This document shows positions 52,342-64,000 of a stretch of 64,000 nucleotides of DNA, piece by piece. Numbering within the stretch: position 1 is the stretch's first letter; each line of letters begins with the position of its first letter. The position numbers were made by a program, and so were the translations under genes. Where the stretch lies: contig CAJXUD010000011.1 of the NCBI GenBank assembly GCA_913061415.1, forward strand, positions 1 through 64,000, in the 5' to 3' direction. The notes below the pieces were generated by a model. The model saw only the letters and a list, made by a program, of their open reading frames with translations. It did no database searches and was not told where the DNA came from. This DNA comes from an uncultured Oleispira sp. Lineage in GTDB: Bacteria; Pseudomonadota; Gammaproteobacteria; Pseudomonadales; Oceanobacteraceae.

Positions 52342-52896
52342 TTAGTGATGCATTGCCTGATGACTCATTTGGCTAAGCGCATCAATATCGATGTCTGAAA
52401 ACTTCAGCAACTCGCCACCAAATTCGGCGGCGAACTGTTCTGCATCAGCCTGCTTAGAGAAGGATGCTAACGCAGGCCCCATGGCTCCCTTCAAACGATG
52501 TCCCGATACATAGATAGCTGTTTTAGCATCAATGTACTGGGCTTTCTCTTGCTCATCCCATGCTGCGGTTGCAACATCATGAACATAAATATGTTCTATT
52601 CTATGCTGGTGTTCTGGTTGCAATGCGTAAGCAAACATATCGCGCGTTGAACAAAAGCGCTTAGCGGGTAATCCGCCTCGCTCAAAGACTTGCCCTTTAG
52701 GCCCAGGAAAGCGATTGATGTACATGCCGCATAAATCACACTCCTCACCATTTTGAATGATCACCGGTTCGGGAGCTGCAGCGGCGACTTCTTCCTCTTG
52801 GCCACAGCCCACCATTAATAGTGAGAAAAGCGTTAGCGATAAAAGCCCAATGAGCGTTGCTGTTTTTTTAATAGCGATAGCGAATTGATTCATCAT
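52342..52896 (-). CDS. nosL: NosL copper-chaperone lipoprotein
   Basis: Lipobox LMVGC; CDLCGMYINRFPGPKGQVFERG. Confidence 0.93.
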   Translation of the reverse strand: MMNQFAIAIKKTATLIGLLSLTLFSLLMVGCGQEEEVAAAAPEPVIIQNGEECDLCGMYINRFPGPKGQVFERGGLPAKRFCSTRDMFAYALQPEHQHRIEHIYVHDVATAAWDEQEKAQYIDAKTAIYVSGHRLKGAMGPALASFSKQADAEQFAAEFGGELLKFSDIDIDALSQMSHQAMHH

Positions 52897-53723
52897 TCTG
52901 ATAACTCTTTTTTATTAAATATCCACCAAGAACAGGCTAATGGCATAGCCACCCAAAGAAGCATAACGGCTAGTAAGTAGAGGGTTCCATCAGCACCGTG
53001 CTCGGCAATTTGTAATACCCCTGAATAGTTCTCTGCACCAATAATGGTATAGACCAAAATACGGAATACATCCGTTGGGTTAATCCACAATAAAAAAGGC
53101 ACAAGGGTTTCATTAATATTGCCTTCGCTAGCGACAAGAATGGCCATGAGAACTAAGTCAAAAACCAATACGAATAAAAACCAAACAATCAGAGCAAGCC
53201 CTGCGGCTTTAGACTTTTCGGCAACAGAAATACTGATGATATAAGCCAATGCAATAAACACCCAGCCCAGCAAACTGGCGAGCACAATAAATTGACTGAA
53301 TGCGATTAATACGCTGGCCACATCAACATCGCTGACTAAGCAAATAATGATGGCGGGTAAGCCAAAACCCAATACCGATGCGAGTGTAATGATGGCAGCT
53401 TGGCCGGTAAATTTACCGAGTAGTAGTTGTGCGCTACTTAAGGGATAGGTCATTAATAGCAATAACGTTCCTTGCTCTAATTCGCCGACAAACGAGTTAT
53501 ACGCCAGCATTAAAGCAATTAGCGGAATGAGCATTACGCATAAGCTGGCAAGGCTAACCAAGGTTGATTCTAACGACGAAAAGCCTAAAACACCCGCAGT
53601 AGCAGAGCCAAAGTAGGCTAAGCCTAATGACATTAAAATAAAAATAATCGTGATAGCTCCGGTCCAACGATTGCGTAGACCATCACGAAATTCTTTTTGT
53701 GCAACGATTAATATTTTATTCAT
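52893..53723 (-). CDS. nosY: ABC transporter permease NosY
   Basis: 6-TM permease NKILIVAQKEFRDGLRNRW; ATGA overlap with nosL. Confidence 0.93.
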   Translation of the reverse strand: MNKILIVAQKEFRDGLRNRWTGAITIIFILMSLGLAYFGSATAGVLGFSSLESTLVSLASLCVMLIPLIALMLAYNSFVGELEQGTLLLLMTYPLSSAQLLLGKFTGQAAIITLASVLGFGLPAIIICLVSDVDVASVLIAFSQFIVLASLLGWVFIALAYIISISVAEKSKAAGLALIVWFLFVLVFDLVLMAILVASEGNINETLVPFLLWINPTDVFRILVYTIIGAENYSGVLQIAEHGADGTLYLLAVMLLWVAMPLACSWWIFNKKELSE

Positions 53724-53728
53724 ATTAC

Positions 53729-54706
53729 TTATAATCCTGAGTCTTTAACCGCTGACTGATTGAAATTCGTTAAATAGTAGCGATACAAATCTTCTAAAGA
53801 CGGCAGCTTAATGTGTAAATCTTGTAGGTTATCGTCAGTGGATAAATTTTTAATAATAGCGAGTTTTTTCTCTGCCGAGGTATTAAAGCGATGAGACAAC
53901 GCGCTATCAATATGAACGGCTGAAGTCATGGCGTGAACTGAATTTAGCCAATCAGATTCGCTGATTAGGCCATTGGTTCTTTGTTCAATATCTGGGCGAG
54001 ACAAGCCTGTCACCGATATTTCAATGGGAAGGTTTGCTGCCGCGCGCAACTCGTCTAACGGTCCTAAAGCCAGTTTGCGACCTTTGCTCAAAATCATCGC
54101 GCGATCAATGTGACTCTCAACACCGGGTAAAACATGCGAGCATAAAATAACGGCACAGCCCCCAGACTTTAAACGATCAACGGTAAGATAAAAGTCTTGA
54201 GTAGCAACGGGGTCTAAGCCGACGGTAGGCTCATCTAAAATTAATAACTTAGGCTCGCCCAAAAAAGCTTGTGCTAACCCCAAGCGTTGACGCATGCCTT
54301 TGGAATAGGTTTTTACTGCACGATCTGCAGCAGGCGCTAAATTTACTTCTTCTAATAAACGATCGGCTTGTGCTTTATTATGACCTTTAAGTTTGGCCAA
54401 ATAATGCAGCACTTCTCGACCTGTTAAATGCTCATAGAAACTGACATTTTCAGGTAAATAGCCAAATAAGGTGCGGTAATCGTGAGCTTGATGACTGCGA
54501 GGGCAGTGACCCAGTGCAGAAATTTTTCCACCACTAGGCTTTAAAACGCCTAAGATCAATTTCATTAAGGTACTTTTTCCGGCCCCGTTATGGCCGAATA
54601 AACCTAAGACTTCACCCGCTTTCACTGACATGCTCAATGGGTGCAAGGCATTGACGTTAGGATAGTATTTGCAGACGTCTGTTAATTCTACAGCGATATC
54701 ATTCAT
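53729..54706 (-). CDS. nosF: ABC transporter ATPase NosF
   Basis: GLFGHNGAGKSTLMKLILG; YSKGMRQRLGLAQAFLGEPKLLILDEPTVGLDP. Confidence 0.95.
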   Translation of the reverse strand: MNDIAVELTDVCKYYPNVNALHPLSMSVKAGEVLGLFGHNGAGKSTLMKLILGVLKPSGGKISALGHCPRSHQAHDYRTLFGYLPENVSFYEHLTGREVLHYLAKLKGHNKAQADRLLEEVNLAPAADRAVKTYSKGMRQRLGLAQAFLGEPKLLILDEPTVGLDPVATQDFYLTVDRLKSGGCAVILCSHVLPGVESHIDRAMILSKGRKLALGPLDELRAAANLPIEISVTGLSRPDIEQRTNGLISESDWLNSVHAMTSAVHIDSALSHRFNTSAEKKLAIIKNLSTDDNLQDLHIKLPSLEDLYRYYLTNFNQSAVKDSGL

Positions 54707-56040
54707 AGCGAGATTTCTGCCTTAGTTTTTAGGCTAAAGGGTTGTGACTTAATCGGATTCGGCTTCATAAGAGGGTAAGAATCTTTTACCCCTGGTGCTT
54801 TTAATACCGGAAATTGTTGCTGCACCCAGCGCAATAATAAAACCGCTGGGCTATCCATTAAAAATCGTGCTTCAGGGTATTTCCAGAATAACTTATCAAT
54901 ACCGTCGTTGGGTTCAAAAGGCACATCCCCGCGACCATCACTATCCATATCCCAGCCTTGGTAATTACTCCAGTAGTTACCGGTATGAATACCATCGGCT
55001 TCTTGGCTCCATTCTTGTAGCTTATTAGAAACGTATTTCACTTGAATCTGATTATCGATAAACGTATTGCCAGATATCTTTACGCCTTCAGAACCTGCAG
55101 TTAAGTGAATACCAATTTCAGCATGTTCAATATGATTATTTCGAATGGTATTGTAGCCCGAGTTATAAATGAATAACCCTTTGCCATCACGGCCTAATAC
55201 TTTTTTGTCGGCAGGGGTCCAAACATTTTTGATCACGTTGTCTTCAAACGTTGAATAGATAATAAAGTTAATTAAAAAACCATAATCTAGGCTGTTTTCG
55301 GTCACATTGCCGCGTATTTCTAAATGACGTGAATTCATCATGGCGTAACCCGCTCGCGTATTGTAAGCGTAGTTATTCAGAATTTTATTATGGTAAGAAT
55401 ACATGTAATGAATGCCGTAGCGTAAATCGTGTACGGTATTTTGTGCGAGGGTATTATTGGTGCTGGATATTACGTATAAGCCATCACGAGTTTTGCTAAT
55501 ATCATTACCGCGTACTTCGGTATTTTTCATATTAGAAATTTGAATACCGTTGCCTCTATCGGCTGAGCGTAGAGAGTCGTTACCAATCACGGTATTATTT
55601 AAAATTTTATTATGCTCGCCACCCTCAAGCCAGATACCAAAAGTATCGCCTTCAAGATGACAATTCTTAATAATAATGCCATTAGAATTCTCATCAGAAT
55701 AAATGCCCGCATTTTGCTCTGTAAGATCGTCTCCCCAGTTTATGATGCGTAATGAATCAATGGTCACATCTTTGACATTAATTAAGATCCCATTGCCTGT
55801 TCCTTGGGCATCGATAGTCGCATCGGTACCGGATAAAGTAATGCTATTGTTGATTACAAAATTCCCAAAATACTGACCAGACTGCAGCTGCACATGGTCG
55901 CCAGCTTGCGCTGAATCTAACGTTTTTTGTAAAGAATCTTGAGGGGTGACCTGCCAGGTTTTAGCATTGGCGCTAGGAAAAAATACGAGCAGGCTTATAA
56001 AAAAAAGCAGTGTCTTGAGTGACTTCAACCACATTCTCAC
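54703..56040 (-). CDS. nosD: Nitrous oxide reductase maturation protein NosD
   Basis: Signal peptide, right-handed beta-helix repeats, nos cluster position. Confidence 0.94.
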   Translation of the reverse strand: MRMWLKSLKTLLFFISLLVFFPSANAKTWQVTPQDSLQKTLDSAQAGDHVQLQSGQYFGNFVINNSITLSGTDATIDAQGTGNGILINVKDVTIDSLRIINWGDDLTEQNAGIYSDENSNGIIIKNCHLEGDTFGIWLEGGEHNKILNNTVIGNDSLRSADRGNGIQISNMKNTEVRGNDISKTRDGLYVISSTNNTLAQNTVHDLRYGIHYMYSYHNKILNNYAYNTRAGYAMMNSRHLEIRGNVTENSLDYGFLINFIIYSTFEDNVIKNVWTPADKKVLGRDGKGLFIYNSGYNTIRNNHIEHAEIGIHLTAGSEGVKISGNTFIDNQIQVKYVSNKLQEWSQEADGIHTGNYWSNYQGWDMDSDGRGDVPFEPNDGIDKLFWKYPEARFLMDSPAVLLLRWVQQQFPVLKAPGVKDSYPLMKPNPIKSQPFSLKTKAEISL

Positions 56041-56080
56041 TTAAGCAATAAATCATTAGAAGTAATTATTAAATTACCAT

Positions 56081-56117
56081 AAAAAAAGCCGAGTGTTCTA
56101 AAAACTAGGCTTTTTTT
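56081..56117 (-). terminator. Intrinsic terminator between nosZ and nosD
   Basis: AAAAAAAGCC...GGCTTTTTTT symmetric stem with T-tract on the minus strand. Confidence 0.8.
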
Positions 56118-56141
56118 AGGACTAAACAAATGTTTCTTGAG

Positions 56142-56160
56142 GTGGGTCATCTAGACCCAC
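56142..56160 (-). repeat. Short hairpin just downstream of nosZ
   Basis: GTGGGTC-ATCTA-GACCCAC. Confidence 0.75.
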
Positions 56161-56173
56161 AACAAAGCGCTAA

Positions 56174-58120
56174 TTATTTAGCTTCAACCAACATACGACC
56201 GCGCATTTCCATGTGAAGAGCGTGGCAGAACCAGTTGCAGTAATACCACTGAACACCTGGCTTACTGGCAGTAAAGGTGATCGAAGAAGTAGCTTGTGGG
56301 CCTACTTCCATCTGAACACCATGGTTAGTCATACAGAAACCGTGGGTTACGTCTTCAATGTTATCAAGGTTAGTCACAACAACCGTGACTTCGTTGCCTT
56401 CTTTAACTTTGAATTCAGACAAGCCAAACATAGGGGCAACAGACGTCATGTAAACACGAACCTTATTGCCATCACGAATAACCTTGTTATCTGTTTCAAC
56501 GTTTACGCCATCGCGCTTCGCCATTGCAACAGTTTCTGCAAACATTGGATCATCACGAGTCCAGATTTTCTTAGGCTTAATTTTGCTACGGTGAACCAAT
56601 AGGCAATCGTGTGGTTCAGCAAAAGTAGGGCCGTCGTGTACCAGCTTCATTTCGTCGCCGGAGATATCAATCAACTGATCGTTCTCTGGGCGTAATGGGC
56701 CTACGGGTAAGAACCTATCTTTCGAGAACTTACAAAGCACCACTAACCATTTACCATCAGCGTCACGCGACTCACCCATTGTTGTATGGTTGTGTCCTGG
56801 TTGGTAGTGAACATCTAGCTTTTGACGAAGGTAATTAACTTTTTCACCTTGATAAGCGGCAACAGCATCTTTTACATTCCATTTGGCAATCTGGCTATCT
56901 AAGAACAAGGTCGTATAAGCATTCCCCTTGTTATCAAAAGCGGTGTGTAATGGCCCTAAACCGAGTTCTGGTTCGGCAACGATAGTATCGCGGGGCTTAA
57001 TTTTGTCAGCGAATAGATCATCTAATTTATCAATAGCAACAACAGAAACGGTTGGAGAAAGCTTTCCGTTTACAGCAAAGTATTCACCACCTGGAGATGT
57101 ATTAACACCATGTGGAGACTTAGGTACAGGAATATAGCGAGTAAGTTCTGAACCTTTACGGCCATCTAAAACAGGAACGTTATTGCCATTATAGTTCTTG
57201 AATTTTCCTGCTTTTACAGCCGCTTCACAGCGAGCTAAGCTAAATACTACAAGGTGGTCACGCTCAGAAGAAACCATTTCGCCTAGAGTCATACCCATTT
57301 CAGAGTTATAACAAGTCGATGCGAAATATTTACCGTCGTAATCAGCGTCGGTATTATCTAGGTTGCCGTCAACGATTACCTGAAAAGCAACTTCCATCTT
57401 TTCAGCATCAACAACGCTGAAGATAGAGCGGTAGGTGCTAACATCTTCAAGAGATTCTTTGCCGTCGTTATTTAATGGAATTTCGAACTCTCCATTACAA
57501 ATAACGTACTTAGTATAAGGTACTTTTTGTACACGAAGACCATGAACAGCCTGTACATTAGGAATAGTAATGATTTTGTCGGTTTTCATTACATCACAAC
57601 GAATACGCGCAACACGAGAGTTGGCTTTATCATTAATGAAAACATACTTACCGTCGTAGTGACCGTCTTGCATACTCATGTGAGGGTGATGCGAGTCACC
57701 GGCAAGAAGATGATCGCCATCGCCACGAATGCGTTTTGATTCGTCGGTTAAACCCCAACCTGTTGCGCTATCGATGTTGAATACAGGAATACGCATCAGT
57801 TCACGCATAGATGGAATACCAAGGATACGAACTTCACCCGAGTGACCGCCACTCCAGAAACCATAATATTCGTCTAGTTCACCAGGATGAACAAATGCTT
57901 TATTGCCACCGGCTTCAGCAGCTTGTGCTTTAGCAGACGCCGCAAACATCGCAGCAGTCATTGGAATTGCGCCAGCACCAGCAGCCAATGCGCCTGCACC
58001 TAGAAAGCCACGACGGCTGATTTCCATTTTAGTTTCTAGGCTGGTTGCTTCAGTAGTCTCTACTTGGCTTTCTACCTGATTCTCTAATTGAGAGTCAATT
58101 GGATGTTCATTCTTATCCAT
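56174..58120 (-). CDS. nosZ: Nitrous oxide reductase, clade I (Tat-exported)
   Basis: [14 protein letters not shown] Tat motif; CuA motif [18 protein letters not shown]. Confidence 0.98.
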
Positions 58121-58176
58121 GATATTCCCTTCTTCTTTTAGGTTTTATTAAAACAATTTATAAAGTTACTTAAAGG

Positions 58177-60339
58177 TTATTCAACAATGCGAATAGGCTC
58201 GGCCGGAGTCGCTTTTTGTTTAGCGCGTTTAAGTTTTTTCTGCTTAAGAACGAGTGGTGGGCACTTGTTCTTATTTTGATAAGTCACTTGGCAATCCAAG
58301 CAGTGGTGGCATTCGCGTAAATTGATCTCACCATTGGGTTCGATAGCACCAATCTCACATTCAACAGCGCACAGCTGGCAAGGATCTCCACACTCTTTAC
58401 GACGCTTCAACCAGTCAAATAAGCGAACACCTGAAGGGACTGCGATGGCAGCACCGAGTGGACAAATATAACGGCAATACACTTTGCGACTGAATACAGA
58501 CATTAAAATCAAGGCGCTTGCGTATAAGATGAAAGGCCAATCGCGATCAAAGTTTAAGAGGAAAACAGTTTTAAATGGCTCAACTTCTGCGTACACCTCT
58601 GCCGTTTGCAAAGATTCTAAAGACAAGCCGAATAGAGCAAAAAGGATTAAGTATTTTATGGCCCATAAGCGTTCGTGGATTGCAAAAGGCACAACGTATT
58701 GAGGGATTTTTAATTTAACCGCAAGCTCACCAACCAATTCCTGTAATGCTCCAAAAGGGCATAACCAGCCGCAGAAGATACCGCGTCCCCACAACAGAAT
58801 GGTGACTGCGATGAACATCCAAAGGCAGAAGATGATAGGGTCTAGTAAAAAGGTTTCCCAGTGAAAGTCTGTCATTAAGGCTTTCATAAAGGTCAATACG
58901 TTTACTACGGACACTTGGCCAAGAGAATACCAACCAACAAACAGTACGGTATAAATTAAGAAAGCACGGCGGAAGGTATGTAGAAAGCGAGGGAACTTAA
59001 CCAGCCAGTCTTGCAAGAAAATAACGATGATGATCAAAATCATACTAATGATTAAAATGGTCACAGGAACTTGCTTTGCAATCCAAACCTGCTGCCACAT
59101 AGGTAGGTCTGTAATGTCTTGCTTGGCTTCAACAAAAGGACGATCAAGATAATTTTCTAATGGTAGGTAGTGTGTTTTAAAGCTGCTAAAAATACTGTCT
59201 AGAGGCCCTGTTTGGCGACGTACTAATAATTCAATTTCCCACTCAGCACCTGGATTAAATTTGTGATGATCTCGAATAATAAAAATCGACATTTCTTCAA
59301 AACGAGGAGCGCCATCGGCATAAATATCATTAACACGATATTGATCCAAATCGCGGAAGCTAAAAACATTATCGCCTTGATGAATCTGGATACGATCGAA
59401 AATACCCCCGCGTACATAGCCAGAGCCTTTAAAAGAGAAACCATTGCTCATTAACGCTAAGGCATGCTCACCTTCTTTTAATTGGTCTTGTAGCCATTCG
59501 TATTCGCTATCACCCAGTAAATTACGGCCAATCGTTGGGATATTTAATTGGGTGTAATAAAGGTCGATGAAAGAGGCATCACCTTCTTCTTTTGAAAGAG
59601 GTGTATCGAGTTCACCATCGGTGCCTGCAAAGGAGTCTTCAACTTGGCTATTTTTAAGCAGCATACGACGAATAGAGCCATCGCCGGTTAGTTGAGTCCA
59701 ATTGGATGGCTGGTAAACGTCTTGTTTAATGTTCGCAATCGGGAGTACGTCTTCTTCTAAAACTTCGATAATGCCTAGGTGTTTTGCGACTTCTTTGGCA
59801 GAACGCATAATGCCTAGGTTCACCACCATAACGGTTACGGTTGCGCCGGATAGTCCATCAATGTGAATGCTGTTGTTTTCACCCTGACCACCGATTTTTA
59901 CTAGATCAGTTGACATGAAACCGGAGTATTGATCAGTAAACGTATGGAGTTTGTGTTCTGGAATACCAATAAGCAAGATAGGTTCGTGATGTTCTAATAC
60001 ATGTACGGATACGATTTTTCCTTCGGTATCCATAAGTACTAAGCTATTTACTGGCTCGCCTGAGTAGGCAGGAATTAATGCAATATCGTCAGTTTCAAAA
60101 GCATAACCCAGTACCTCGTCTTCTTTTTTGATCGTCCAGAAAGCAAGATCGCCTTCTTCTAGAACTTCAGATTTAGTACCGATAGACGTTGCATCAGGGA
60201 AAGCCGCTTCAATAAAGGGCTCTGCTGGTTTTACAGGGCTAACGTTTAGGCCAGCAGAGAATGCAGCACTAGACACTAAAAGCATTAGTGTAAGAAAAAC
60301 ACATTTAATGTTTAAAAAATGATGGGCTAGTGATTTCAC
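58177..60339 (-). CDS. nosR: NosR: FMN-binding, polyferredoxin membrane protein
   Basis: Periplasmic FMN-binding region (DGLSGATVTVMV), CGWLCPFGALQE, CRYICPLGA, Cys clusters. Confidence 0.96.
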   Translation of the reverse strand: MKSLAHHFLNIKCVFLTLMLLVSSAAFSAGLNVSPVKPAEPFIEAAFPDATSIGTKSEVLEEGDLAFWTIKKEDEVLGYAFETDDIALIPAYSGEPVNSLVLMDTEGKIVSVHVLEHHEPILLIGIPEHKLHTFTDQYSGFMSTDLVKIGGQGENNSIHIDGLSGATVTVMVVNLGIMRSAKEVAKHLGIIEVLEEDVLPIANIKQDVYQPSNWTQLTGDGSIRRMLLKNSQVEDSFAGTDGELDTPLSKEEGDASFIDLYYTQLNIPTIGRNLLGDSEYEWLQDQLKEGEHALALMSNGFSFKGSGYVRGGIFDRIQIHQGDNVFSFRDLDQYRVNDIYADGAPRFEEMSIFIIRDHHKFNPGAEWEIELLVRRQTGPLDSIFSSFKTHYLPLENYLDRPFVEAKQDITDLPMWQQVWIAKQVPVTILIISMILIIIVIFLQDWLVKFPRFLHTFRRAFLIYTVLFVGWYSLGQVSVVNVLTFMKALMTDFHWETFLLDPIIFCLWMFIAVTILLWGRGIFCGWLCPFGALQELVGELAVKLKIPQYVVPFAIHERLWAIKYLILFALFGLSLESLQTAEVYAEVEPFKTVFLLNFDRDWPFILYASALILMSVFSRKVYCRYICPLGAAIAVPSGVRLFDWLKRRKECGDPCQLCAVECEIGAIEPNGEINLRECHHCLDCQVTYQNKNKCPPLVLKQKKLKRAKQKATPAEPIRIVE

Positions 60340-60534: not shown

Positions 60535-61851
60535 TTAACTTGTGACTGTCTGTTTTTGTCTCATTATTATTTCTGAATCATTTTTTACAACAGATTGAGT
60601 GGCAAGTTGAGAGACTTTTTTCTCGCTCTCCAAAATGTTATGAATGACAAAATCCATTAAATCTTCAACTCGGCCACCATCAAGTTCAATTGGCGCTCGC
60701 ATAATAATTTCAATACCTTCGGGGTGTCCTGCAAGGGTAATAAAGAGTGCTGTGGTATCAAACTCAGGCGGAATAAAATAACATTTACTCGTTTCAAACC
60801 CCGGACCGCTTAGCATTTCAATGTTTAATAGTCCCAAATTTGAGATAACACCGCTGGTTCGAAATTGTCCATTTTTGCGACGTTTATCAACCAGTCGACT
60901 GTTACTATTGAAAATCGTTTTTTGTGGAACCCAGTTTAATAGGTGAAAAGGAAAAAAGCGGAAGAAGCGAGGAATGTCGGCTTCTCTTTTATCGGCTAGC
61001 TGCGCTTTAATATCTTGGCTCCACTGCGCTGCATCGGTATCACGGTTAACATTTACCACAATACCACCGGTTAAATTACCTGTAGAGTTGAGCCCTTCTT
61101 GATGAGGTCTCATATCTACAGGAATCTGAAAGCGTACGGTATCTTCACCGTGTAAACGGCTGAAGCGAGCGGTTTCTAGCGCAACTTTTGCTAATACACC
61201 TTTATGCTTTCCCACGAGCGTTCGACGAACCCAGCGAGACGTCATCAGCTTCTGCTCTTCGGTTATTTTTGATGGCTGACCAGTAGGCGCTGCGACATCA
61301 TTGCCAAGATCGGAGGCCATTGTATGATTGTTCACTGATTTGGCCAGTTCCATATCGGTAATGCTGCTGTTCTCGCCAATGGCTTTCTCGCCACGTAAGC
61401 AACGAAATACATCGTTGGCAAAATGAAGTGTGCCGCGGCCATCCATTGCGCCATGATGCGTTCTGAATAGGACAAATGACTTATTCAGGTTTTTATTGAT
61501 GACAACCAGTACTTCACTGCTAGGGCCGGTGCGTACGTTAAGAGGGGCGACTAAAAAATCGGCATCGTCATTACTTAGGCCATCCCAGTTGCTTTCGATA
61601 ACACGTAGCGGCGTGCTGTATTCACTATCAACCCAACGGCTAAAACCAAGATGGCCTTTTAATATCACACGGCTGCCTGGATTAGCGTATGAGGCTTTTG
61701 TGATTGCGCGGCGAAAGGCGTCGACATCGATATCGGCATTGCCTTCGACGACCATCTGGTTCATGCAGGGAGTGAAAAGCTGGCCATTTTTCACGTTATC
61801 ACAGCTTACGTAGTAGCGTTCGATTGTCGAAAGTGGGCGTTGATAAGTCAT
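60535..61851 (-). CDS. Condensation-domain superfamily acyltransferase-like protein
   Basis: FRTHHGAMDGRGTLHFANDVF (HHxxxDG), C-terminal acyltransferase-like region. Confidence 0.75.
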   Translation of the reverse strand: MTYQRPLSTIERYYVSCDNVKNGQLFTPCMNQMVVEGNADIDVDAFRRAITKASYANPGSRVILKGHLGFSRWVDSEYSTPLRVIESNWDGLSNDDADFLVAPLNVRTGPSSEVLVVINKNLNKSFVLFRTHHGAMDGRGTLHFANDVFRCLRGEKAIGENSSITDMELAKSVNNHTMASDLGNDVAAPTGQPSKITEEQKLMTSRWVRRTLVGKHKGVLAKVALETARFSRLHGEDTVRFQIPVDMRPHQEGLNSTGNLTGGIVVNVNRDTDAAQWSQDIKAQLADKREADIPRFFRFFPFHLLNWVPQKTIFNSNSRLVDKRRKNGQFRTSGVISNLGLLNIEMLSGPGFETSKCYFIPPEFDTTALFITLAGHPEGIEIIMRAPIELDGGRVEDLMDFVIHNILESEKKVSQLATQSVVKNDSEIIMRQKQTVTS

Positions 61852-64000
61852 ACAGAAAATCCTTCTTTATTATTTTTTGCGTCTTGCCAGCCAGCTTCCC
61901 AGCTTGAAGAAAGAACATCATCTTGGTAGGGGCTTGTTTTATTTTTCTTATTGCTGCCTTGCTGAAATCCTTGCTGATAAGCCAGTTCAACAGAGTCTGT
62001 GATGATTTTTTTACGACGAATTTTATTAGAAAGATTGGTTAAGCTAATTAACCACTGGTCTAACAATAAATAACTTGCAGGAACCAGTAGCAGGCTAATA
62101 AACGTCGCAAACAAAACACCAAAAGCGAGAGATACTGCCATAGGAATTAAAAACTGAGCTTGGATGCTGGTTTCTAAAATCAGTGGCGTGAGGCCGACAA
62201 AGGTTGTTAGAGAGGTTAAAAGAATTGGGCGGAAACGTTTTTTACCGGCATCGCAGACTGCGACAAAGACTGCGTGGCCTTCTTCTCGTTGCTGGTTGAT
62301 GTAGTTCATTAATACGAGATTATCGTTCACCACAACGCCGCTGACCGCCACCATGCCGACAAACGACCAAAGGGTGAGCTCTAAATCCAATAGGAGGTGG
62401 CCGACCAGTGAGCCAAGCAATCCGAAGGGAATCGCAAAGAGTACTAATAAAGGCTGGCTGTAAGAGGCAAAGAGTACGGCCATCATCAAGTACATCGCTA
62501 AAATAGCGATAAGGTAACCCTTACTTAAAATGCTCAAGAAAGACGCGATGCTCTTTTGCTGTCCTGCGGTGCTCCAACGAATGCCTGGATGGTCATTAAC
62601 GATTTGATCAAGCTTGTGCTCCTTTAGCGCGCTTTTGATTTGAGAAACAGAATTCTTCTGGCTGTTAATATATGCACTGACCGAGACAATGCGCTGTTGG
62701 TCGTAACGTTTAATGTGATTACGCGCAGGCTGATATTCAATATTGGCAATGGTCGATAAACTCACATACTGATTATTCGGCAGCTTAATCGGAAGGTTTT
62801 CTAAGTACCACATTGAAGAGCGTTCATCTTCTGGCAAGCCTAGCCACACATTAACCTCATCGTCTTGGGTCTGAATGTTTTGAACGTCAGCCCCTTGATA
62901 GGCACTATGCACTTGCGAGAGTACCTGCTGTAAAGAAAGATCCAAGGCAATGGCGTTATCTTTTAATTGGATATTGGCTTGTTGCTTGGCACTGCTAATC
63001 GAGTCACTAATATCATAACTGCCCTCAAACTCTGCTAGCACTTCTTTTAACTGATCGGCAGCGCTGGTGAGTTGAGCGAGATCGTAGCCTGAAAATTCAA
63101 TATTAATATCGGGTTTAGCCGGGTTCAAACTTGCACTGAATTGTATATCTTCAATATCGGCAATCGTGCCCGTCAGTTCACGCCAGCGACGTACCAGTTC
63201 TTGGCCACTATATTGGCGCGCATTACCTGTTGATAACTCCAACGTGACTTGGGCGGTATGATCGAGATCTTTATTCAGATCTTGGTTGGATATTTTATTC
63301 TTAGGCCCAATCACTGAATAGATATGTAAAATAGTTGGCTGTGATTCTTGCTGAGTTTCATGTTTAAGTTGATTAGCCGCGGTAATGAGTTGATCAATCG
63401 CTACTTTCGTTTTGTGTCTAGGCGAACCTTCCGGAAAACTCACGTTGGCAATCACAACATCAGCCTCGATGGCCGAAAATAGCGCGATTCGCATCCAACC
63501 GGTCGAGACTACAACCATAAAAATAATAAATATTAAACTAAAGCAGATGACAACTAAGCCTTTGTTATGCAGTGACCGAACGAGCATTGGCTGATAGATC
63601 GTATTAATAAAATAATCGAGAGCATAACTAAATGCTTTTTGGATTTTTGTTAATGGGTTAGGGTTTTTGGTGCTGTCGTTATTAGATTGTTCTGCTTTAG
63701 AGTTTTCTGATTTAGTGCCAGACAAGTGAGCAGGCAAAATATAAATCGATTCTAATAAAGAAAATATCAAGGTTAAAATAACCACGATAGGAATTGCCTG
63801 CATTAATTTACCCTCAGGCCCGGGTAAGAATAACAGCGGTAAAAAAGCAACTATGCTGGTAGCGATCGCGAAAAATATCGGTTTGTAGACTTGGTATGTA
63901 CCTTCTAATGCACCAGCGCGGCCGTAGTTACCCAATTGGTTTTGCTGGTGCACGGATTCCCCTACGACAACGGCATCATCGACAACGATGCCTAAGACAA
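61848..64000 (-). CDS. RND efflux permease, partial (N-terminus beyond window), with RMF-like C-terminal tail
   Basis: VLGIVVDDAVVVGESVHQQNQ continues to window end; SLLESIYILPAHLSG; tail AYQQGFQQG...SPYQ...SSWEAGWQDA. Confidence 0.88.
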   Translation of the reverse strand, partial: VLGIVVDDAVVVGESVHQQNQLGNYGRAGALEGTYQVYKPIFFAIATSIVAFLPLLFLPGPEGKLMQAIPIVVILTLIFSLLESIYILPAHLSGTKSENSKAEQSNNDSTKNPNPLTKIQKAFSYALDYFINTIYQPMLVRSLHNKGLVVICFSLIFIIFMVVVSTGWMRIALFSAIEADVVIANVSFPEGSPRHKTKVAIDQLITAANQLKHETQQESQPTILHIYSVIGPKNKISNQDLNKDLDHTAQVTLELSTGNARQYSGQELVRRWRELTGTIADIEDIQFSASLNPAKPDINIEFSGYDLAQLTSAADQLKEVLAEFEGSYDISDSISSAKQQANIQLKDNAIALDLSLQQVLSQVHSAYQGADVQNIQTQDDEVNVWLGLPEDERSSMWYLENLPIKLPNNQYVSLSTIANIEYQPARNHIKRYDQQRIVSVSAYINSQKNSVSQIKSALKEHKLDQIVNDHPGIRWSTAGQQKSIASFLSILSKGYLIAILAMYLMMAVLFASYSQPLLVLFAIPFGLLGSLVGHLLLDLELTLWSFVGMVAVSGVVVNDNLVLMNYINQQREEGHAVFVAVCDAGKKRFRPILLTSLTTFVGLTPLILETSIQAQFLIPMAVSLAFGVLFATFISLLLVPASYLLLDQWLISLTNLSNKIRRKKIITDSVELAYQQGFQQGSNKKNKTSPYQDDVLSSSWEAGWQDAKNNKEGFSV

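Follow-up and report, generated by a model that had tools for sequence, protein, structure and literature searches.

RMF Domain at the C-Terminus of an RND Permease

An RND permease encoded at the end of the window (the whole analyzed stretch of 64,000 nucleotides from an uncultured Oleispira sp.) ends in a domain of the ribosome modulation factor (RMF) family. The assignment is based on both profile and fold. The tail corresponds to the final 48 residues of the 1104-aa permease and is in the same reading frame (Table 1). Purifying selection acts strongly on the domain, whose fusion to the pump arose once.

Table 1. Positions of the permease, its tail, the neighboring operon genes and the gshA-linked RMF-like proteins
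Feature	Position	Strand	Basis or remark
RND (AcrB/HAE-type) permease gene, 3' part	61848..63998	-	Pfam ACR_tran E=1.1e-85, residues 2-646 of window part; full ORF
Full permease gene	contig 61848-65162	-	1104 aa; start outside the window
Stop codon of RND permease	61848-61850	-
RMF-fold C-terminal domain	61851..61994	-	permease residues 1057-1104; Pfam RMF E=2.7e-9, AlphaFold2 helices, Foldseek RMF matches, kept in 43 tails
Linker, last transmembrane helix to RMF-fold domain	61995..62045	-	17 aa; poorly conserved
438-aa acyltransferase/condensation-like protein	60535..61851	-	ORF; without Pfam match of its own
Upstream operon part: GH3-type synthetase with two GNAT-like proteins and an acyltransferase-like protein	contig 65162-70977 (approximate end) (L003:6163-11978)		conserved across many of the order's families
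gshA-linked RMF-like proteins	L048:2086-2301, L049:2125-2331, L086-L091, L279-L286, L288

ACR_tran (PF00873) gives 288.6 bits over the window part, above the cut-off, and the relatives match it in full length. The Pfam RMF profile (PF04957; gathering cut-off 27.9) gives 37.4 bits for the tail alone and 32.6 bits within the 716-aa window part, where the match spans residues 668-708. Several distant tails score under this cut-off. The NCBIfam RMF equivalog NF011162 gives 39.9 bits for the tail alone and 35.5 bits for the longer protein, both below its cut-off of 40; this equivalog describes a small free protein, and here the domain is in frame with an 1104-aa permease. When the PDB was searched with the tail using phmmer, RMF chains were the sole matches at E<0.01. 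An earlier note, made from the sequence alone, had proposed an RMF/CrpP-type module. The RMF part of this proposal stands, but the score against the Rmf/CrpP family NF041886 is 12.6 bits, below the curated cut-off of 28.

AlphaFold2, run on the last 73 aa together with seven homologues, placed helices at residues 27-39 and 51-69 of this piece, with a pLDDT of ~80-91 over the block and a poorly placed linker. In permease numbering, the helices are at ~1058-1070 and ~1082-1100, and the loop between them contains PY. Among 350,542 PDB chains, the top four Foldseek matches were RMF (probability 0.98-1.00, target-normalized TM 0.63-0.80), and later matches were noise. Being short, the domain yields weak Foldseek E-values (0.07-0.67). 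The two-helix RMF fold with its connecting loop is thus predicted to be present in the tail. These results bear out the RMF-like module reported in the earlier note, and the alignment to E. coli RMF given there is in the correct register. None of the three results named there as contrary (no profile match, no fold match, a tail absent from all orthologues) was obtained.

A frameshift, annotation or assembly artefact was ruled out: the domain is in frame, overlaps the start of the next gene, and is found again in dozens of genomes. A chance match was ruled out by the Pfam score, the predicted fold and the Foldseek ranking. It is also argued against by the recurrence and conservation of the tail across many families.

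Distribution and Origin of the Fusion

A first look at 58 relatives revealed RMF matches within ~700-1150-aa frames; these came from two genera of the window's family and from three further families. A wider search, whose model covered the permease end together with the tail, detected the latter in ~43 of 392 genomes sampled from the order by our own tally; these genomes belong to at least ten family groups (f1, f6, f9, f14, f19, f22, f24, f30, f35 and f45). A sample of 369 genomes of the class yielded a single carrier from outside the order. The tail is also present in a Halomonadaceae MAG, and the named tail-bearing relatives include Oceanospirillaceae and Oceanobacter MAGs. This wide spread was not visible to the earlier note, which had only the window sequence. 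No fusion partner of the RMF-like domain other than RND pumps was seen above ~220 aa among the 150 matches listed. An RMF frame just behind the tail-less pump of Haliea (L140) was considered and rejected; there is nothing in three frames, and the match past the stop codon is a chance extension. The earlier note knew of no description of an RMF-RND fusion, and our searches likewise found none in the literature library used.

In a tree built from the pump part with the tail cut off, 45 tailed and five tail-less pumps fall on one side of a fully supported branch. Tail presence requires three changes on this tree, one gain and two losses, and a second tree made with another program requires the same three. 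The trees were midpoint-rooted for drawing, so the single gain depends on taking the other tail-less pumps as the outgroup. The two loss groups are Moritella and the g5/g8 group of family f1. Natural tail-loss variants, suited as controls, are L136 (Moritella sp. JT01) and L082-L085, which belong to the same pump clade and have the same GH3 cluster.

Within groups, the RMF domain and the pump core are conserved to about the same degree, unlike the linker. Conservation of the core, linker and RMF domain is 79%, 28% and 78% in the window genus and 84%, 52% and 91% in f30. The linker length in relatives is 7-104 aa. For the domain, nine close pairs give a pN of 0.01-0.12 against a pS of 0.51-0.84; the ratio is only rough because synonymous sites are near saturation, but its direction is plain. 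This strong purifying selection does not extend to the linker.

Loss of Ribosome-Contact Residues

Yoshida et al. 2021 (PMC8126665) mutated the conserved residues of E. coli RMF. Changes of R3, K5 or R11 weaken binding, and R45 is required for dimerization and contacts the anti-SD sequence. G16, G23, G43, C29, P30, W40 and W44 were read mainly as fold-shaping, and G23 also as a requirement for dimerization. An alanine in place of a residue such as K5, R11 or R45 weakens or abolishes binding or dimerization (PMC8126665).

K5 and R11 are present in none of the 43 tails and R45 in only one. The corresponding numbers in stand-alone RMFs of related genomes are 31, 30 and 30 of 31. Positions 3 and 5 fall in the linker of the tails, where the alignment is unsure; positions 11 and 45 are firm. 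The tail counts are not independent events, because many tails are closely related. G16, W40 and G43 are invariant in the 43 tails, A12 and P30 are nearly so, and an acidic residue at D46 is kept in 42. The mean charge of the core is -4.3 in tails versus +3.2 in stand-alone RMFs. Judged from these residues, the RMF scaffold appears to be retained and the RNA grip to be lost. As the tail is acidic and lacks the residues that grip the ribosome, it would no longer function as a hibernation factor.

gshA-Linked RMF-Like Proteins

A second small RMF-like protein adjoins gshA (glutamate-cysteine ligase) in all loci examined (17, one of them fetched twice), which represent several families. These proteins share with the tails the signature [SA]WEAG(W)xD (SWEAGW/AWEAGW-D). 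Those that were aligned lack K5 and R45, and R11 is mostly K. Forty-two of the 43 tails score better with the profile of the gshA type than with that of ordinary RMF (mean 46 vs 21 bits). The gshA-linked protein would be annotated as a ribosome modulation factor.

Genomes of f30, f24 and f9 have both a free gshA-type copy and a fused tail. No free copy was found at the search threshold in g1 and g2, the genera nearest to the window. Exact mutual exclusion of the tail and the gshA-type protein was ruled out, since several families have both.

Gene Surroundings of Tailed Pumps

The operon in the window genome is composed of genes for a GNAT-like protein, a GH3 synthetase, a second GNAT-like protein, an acyltransferase-like protein, an MFP adaptor, the RND-RMF permease and the 438-aa acyltransferase/condensation-like protein, in this order. 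All are on one strand with their ends touching or overlapping. The adaptor gene is immediately upstream of the permease gene (RND_mfp, 128.2 bits), and the start codon of the 438-aa protein overlaps the permease stop codon in ATGA. The GNAT and acyltransferase labels are our reading of sequences that have no Pfam match over the cut-off. The GH3 synthetase matches NCBIfam OlsH weakly (E=0.1). A homologue of the 438-aa protein, of the same homology group, is present in the NRPS clusters of f30, on the opposite strand there; one of these f30 homologues matches Condensation weakly (1.7e-4, under the cut-off). Directly downstream of the pump operon and on the same strand, genes for nitrous-oxide reduction (NosR, NosZ, NosD, NosF, NosY and NosL-like, by sequence) occupy positions 52342-60339 of the window.

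The GH3 set of the window operon is also present in f9, f22, f45 and the Halomonadaceae MAG. The pumps of f19, f24 and f30 are instead beside a type II thioesterase, an MFS transporter or an aminotransferase. For f30, three genera were read; in these the pump is behind NRPS genes for proteins of up to ~5,800 aa, which are directly upstream. The case outside the order shows the end of an NRPS gene, MFP, RND-RMF and a TolC-like gene, in this order. A tie of the tail to the GH3 cluster alone was thus ruled out, since the contexts in f19, f24 and f30 are NRPS/thioesterase.

Genes for GH3, NRPS or thioesterase are near 41 of the 45 tailed pumps and near five of the 86 tail-less pumps. For the other four tailed pumps (from f6, f14, f35 and one from f30), no such cluster is in view. 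All five tail-less pumps with these genes are losses within the clade, and none of the 81 tail-less pumps outside the clade has them. It is therefore the pump clade, and not the tail in itself, that is linked to the clusters. In f1 g5/g8 and in Moritella, the tail was lost and the GH3 cluster was kept, and no cluster gene was lost alongside. Thus none of the cluster genes stands out as the source of a partner, and some pumps can do without the tail.

Possible Function of the Tail

The reading that we favor, which stands roughly an even chance of being right, is that an RMF fold was fused once to an MFP-RND pump and was put to new use in natural-product exporters, as a cytosolic module for docking or regulation. 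In an ancestral exporter, an RMF-fold domain would have been fused to the cytosolic C-terminus of the pump. Its source would be the gshA-linked RMF-like protein, not the RMF that hibernates ribosomes. The known topology of RND pumps would put the tail on the cytosolic side. RND pumps are trimers, so three copies of the tail would hang below each pump on flexible linkers. Most likely, the tail would bind a protein of the cytosol. Candidates are biosynthetic enzymes, carrier proteins and regulators, and through such binding the synthesis of an amide or peptide product may be coupled to the activity of the pump or to the export of the product. A more specific version, which we put forward only tentatively, is that the RMF domain of this pump clade recruits or senses the cytosolic biosynthetic machinery. 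Amide or peptide products would then be handed to, or gated into, their own exporter, and the hibernation fold would be a module coupling synthesis and export.

The action of an RMF fold through protein binding has a precedent in the same order. BatR (PA3049) of P. aeruginosa is homologous to RMF, yet hibernation does not depend on it; in two-hybrid tests it interacts with the kinase SrkA (PMC13411936). Co-immunoprecipitation with BatR also listed the acyl carrier protein AcpP1 (PMC13411936).

The earlier note had suggested that the tail tethers ribosomes or senses the growth state at the membrane, that is, that it binds (hibernating) ribosomes and ties pump activity to translation. The RMF family and fold are consistent with this idea, as is the retention of the fold-stabilizing G16, P30, W40 and G43. 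However, nearly all tails (42-43 of 43) lack K5, R11 and R45, the charge of the core has changed sign, substitutions at such sites impair E. coli RMF, and the window genome retains elsewhere a canonical stand-alone RMF in which these contact residues are kept. Tethering is accordingly very improbable, and the repurposed fold that the same note had offered as another option fits the lost residues and the reversed charge much better. The join is also old, conserved and under selection, so reuse for docking or regulation is more probable than a tether to ribosomes. It is rather improbable, though slightly less so than tethering, that the tail keeps the ancestral function of the gshA-linked protein (e.g., in thiol or stress physiology) and was merely moved to the membrane. 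The closeness of 42 of 43 tails to the gshA type and the lack of a detected separate copy in g1 and g2 would agree with it, but the families that have both forms indicate that the tail is not a simple replacement.

The tail could also regulate the pump without any protein partner, by binding a small molecule or the cytosolic face of the pump and thereby gating transport. Its constant location on one pump clade, its flexible linker and its conserved acidic positions such as D46 are compatible with such intrinsic regulation, which we nevertheless regard as unlikely; the wide range of linker lengths makes docking on the pump in one fixed geometry less likely, and the lineages that lost the tail keep both pump and cluster. 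Two independent losses and the lack of the tail in most RND pumps could even suggest a passenger domain with no specific role. This is extremely improbable given the strong purifying selection on the domain, and not on the linker, over a large divergence.

Comparison with Known Systems

The fusion would give one of the best-studied pump families a new domain architecture. It would also clearly exemplify a hibernation-factor fold put to other use. The RMF tail is a sequence marker for an exporter clade in GH3/NRPS clusters and aids in finding such clusters and their exporters. It also makes the coupling of RND pumps to cytosolic product synthesis testable. As a caution, proteins of the SWEAGW type should not be annotated as ribosome modulation factors.

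The tail resembles RMF (PF04957; E. coli, V. parahaemolyticus 2JRM) in the profile match, the helix-loop-helix and the A12/G16/P30/W40/G43 pattern. It differs in being fused to a 12-TM pump, lacking K5/R11/R45, being acidic instead of basic, and being nearer to the gshA-linked paralogue. The gshA-linked proteins share with it the signature, the loss of K5 and R45 and the best profile for nearly all tails, but they are stand-alone frames of 65-142 aa beside glutamate-cysteine ligase, with R11 mostly replaced by K. BatR likewise belongs to the RMF homologues of this order and acts outside hibernation by binding SrkA, but it is a free small protein with no described link to an exporter (PMC13411936).

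The pump shares with the AcrB/HAE-type RND permeases of natural-product clusters the full-length ACR_tran match, the adjoining adaptor gene and the NRPS or GH3 genes nearby. Ordinary members, in contrast, end past the last transmembrane helix or in unrelated short tails. As with the OlsH-type enzymes (PMC12493201), the upstream operon encodes a bacterial amide-forming synthetase of the GH3 family, although the match to OlsH here is only weak.

Two other genes were observed near the pumps of f30 and f24 (L210:5094-7247 and its equivalents). Behind the RND-RMF gene there is a gene for a MORN-repeat protein with a lipoprotein-like start and 11 repeats. A Ser/Thr protein kinase gene is located two genes downstream of the pump gene and is convergent with it; this neighborhood may be coincidental.
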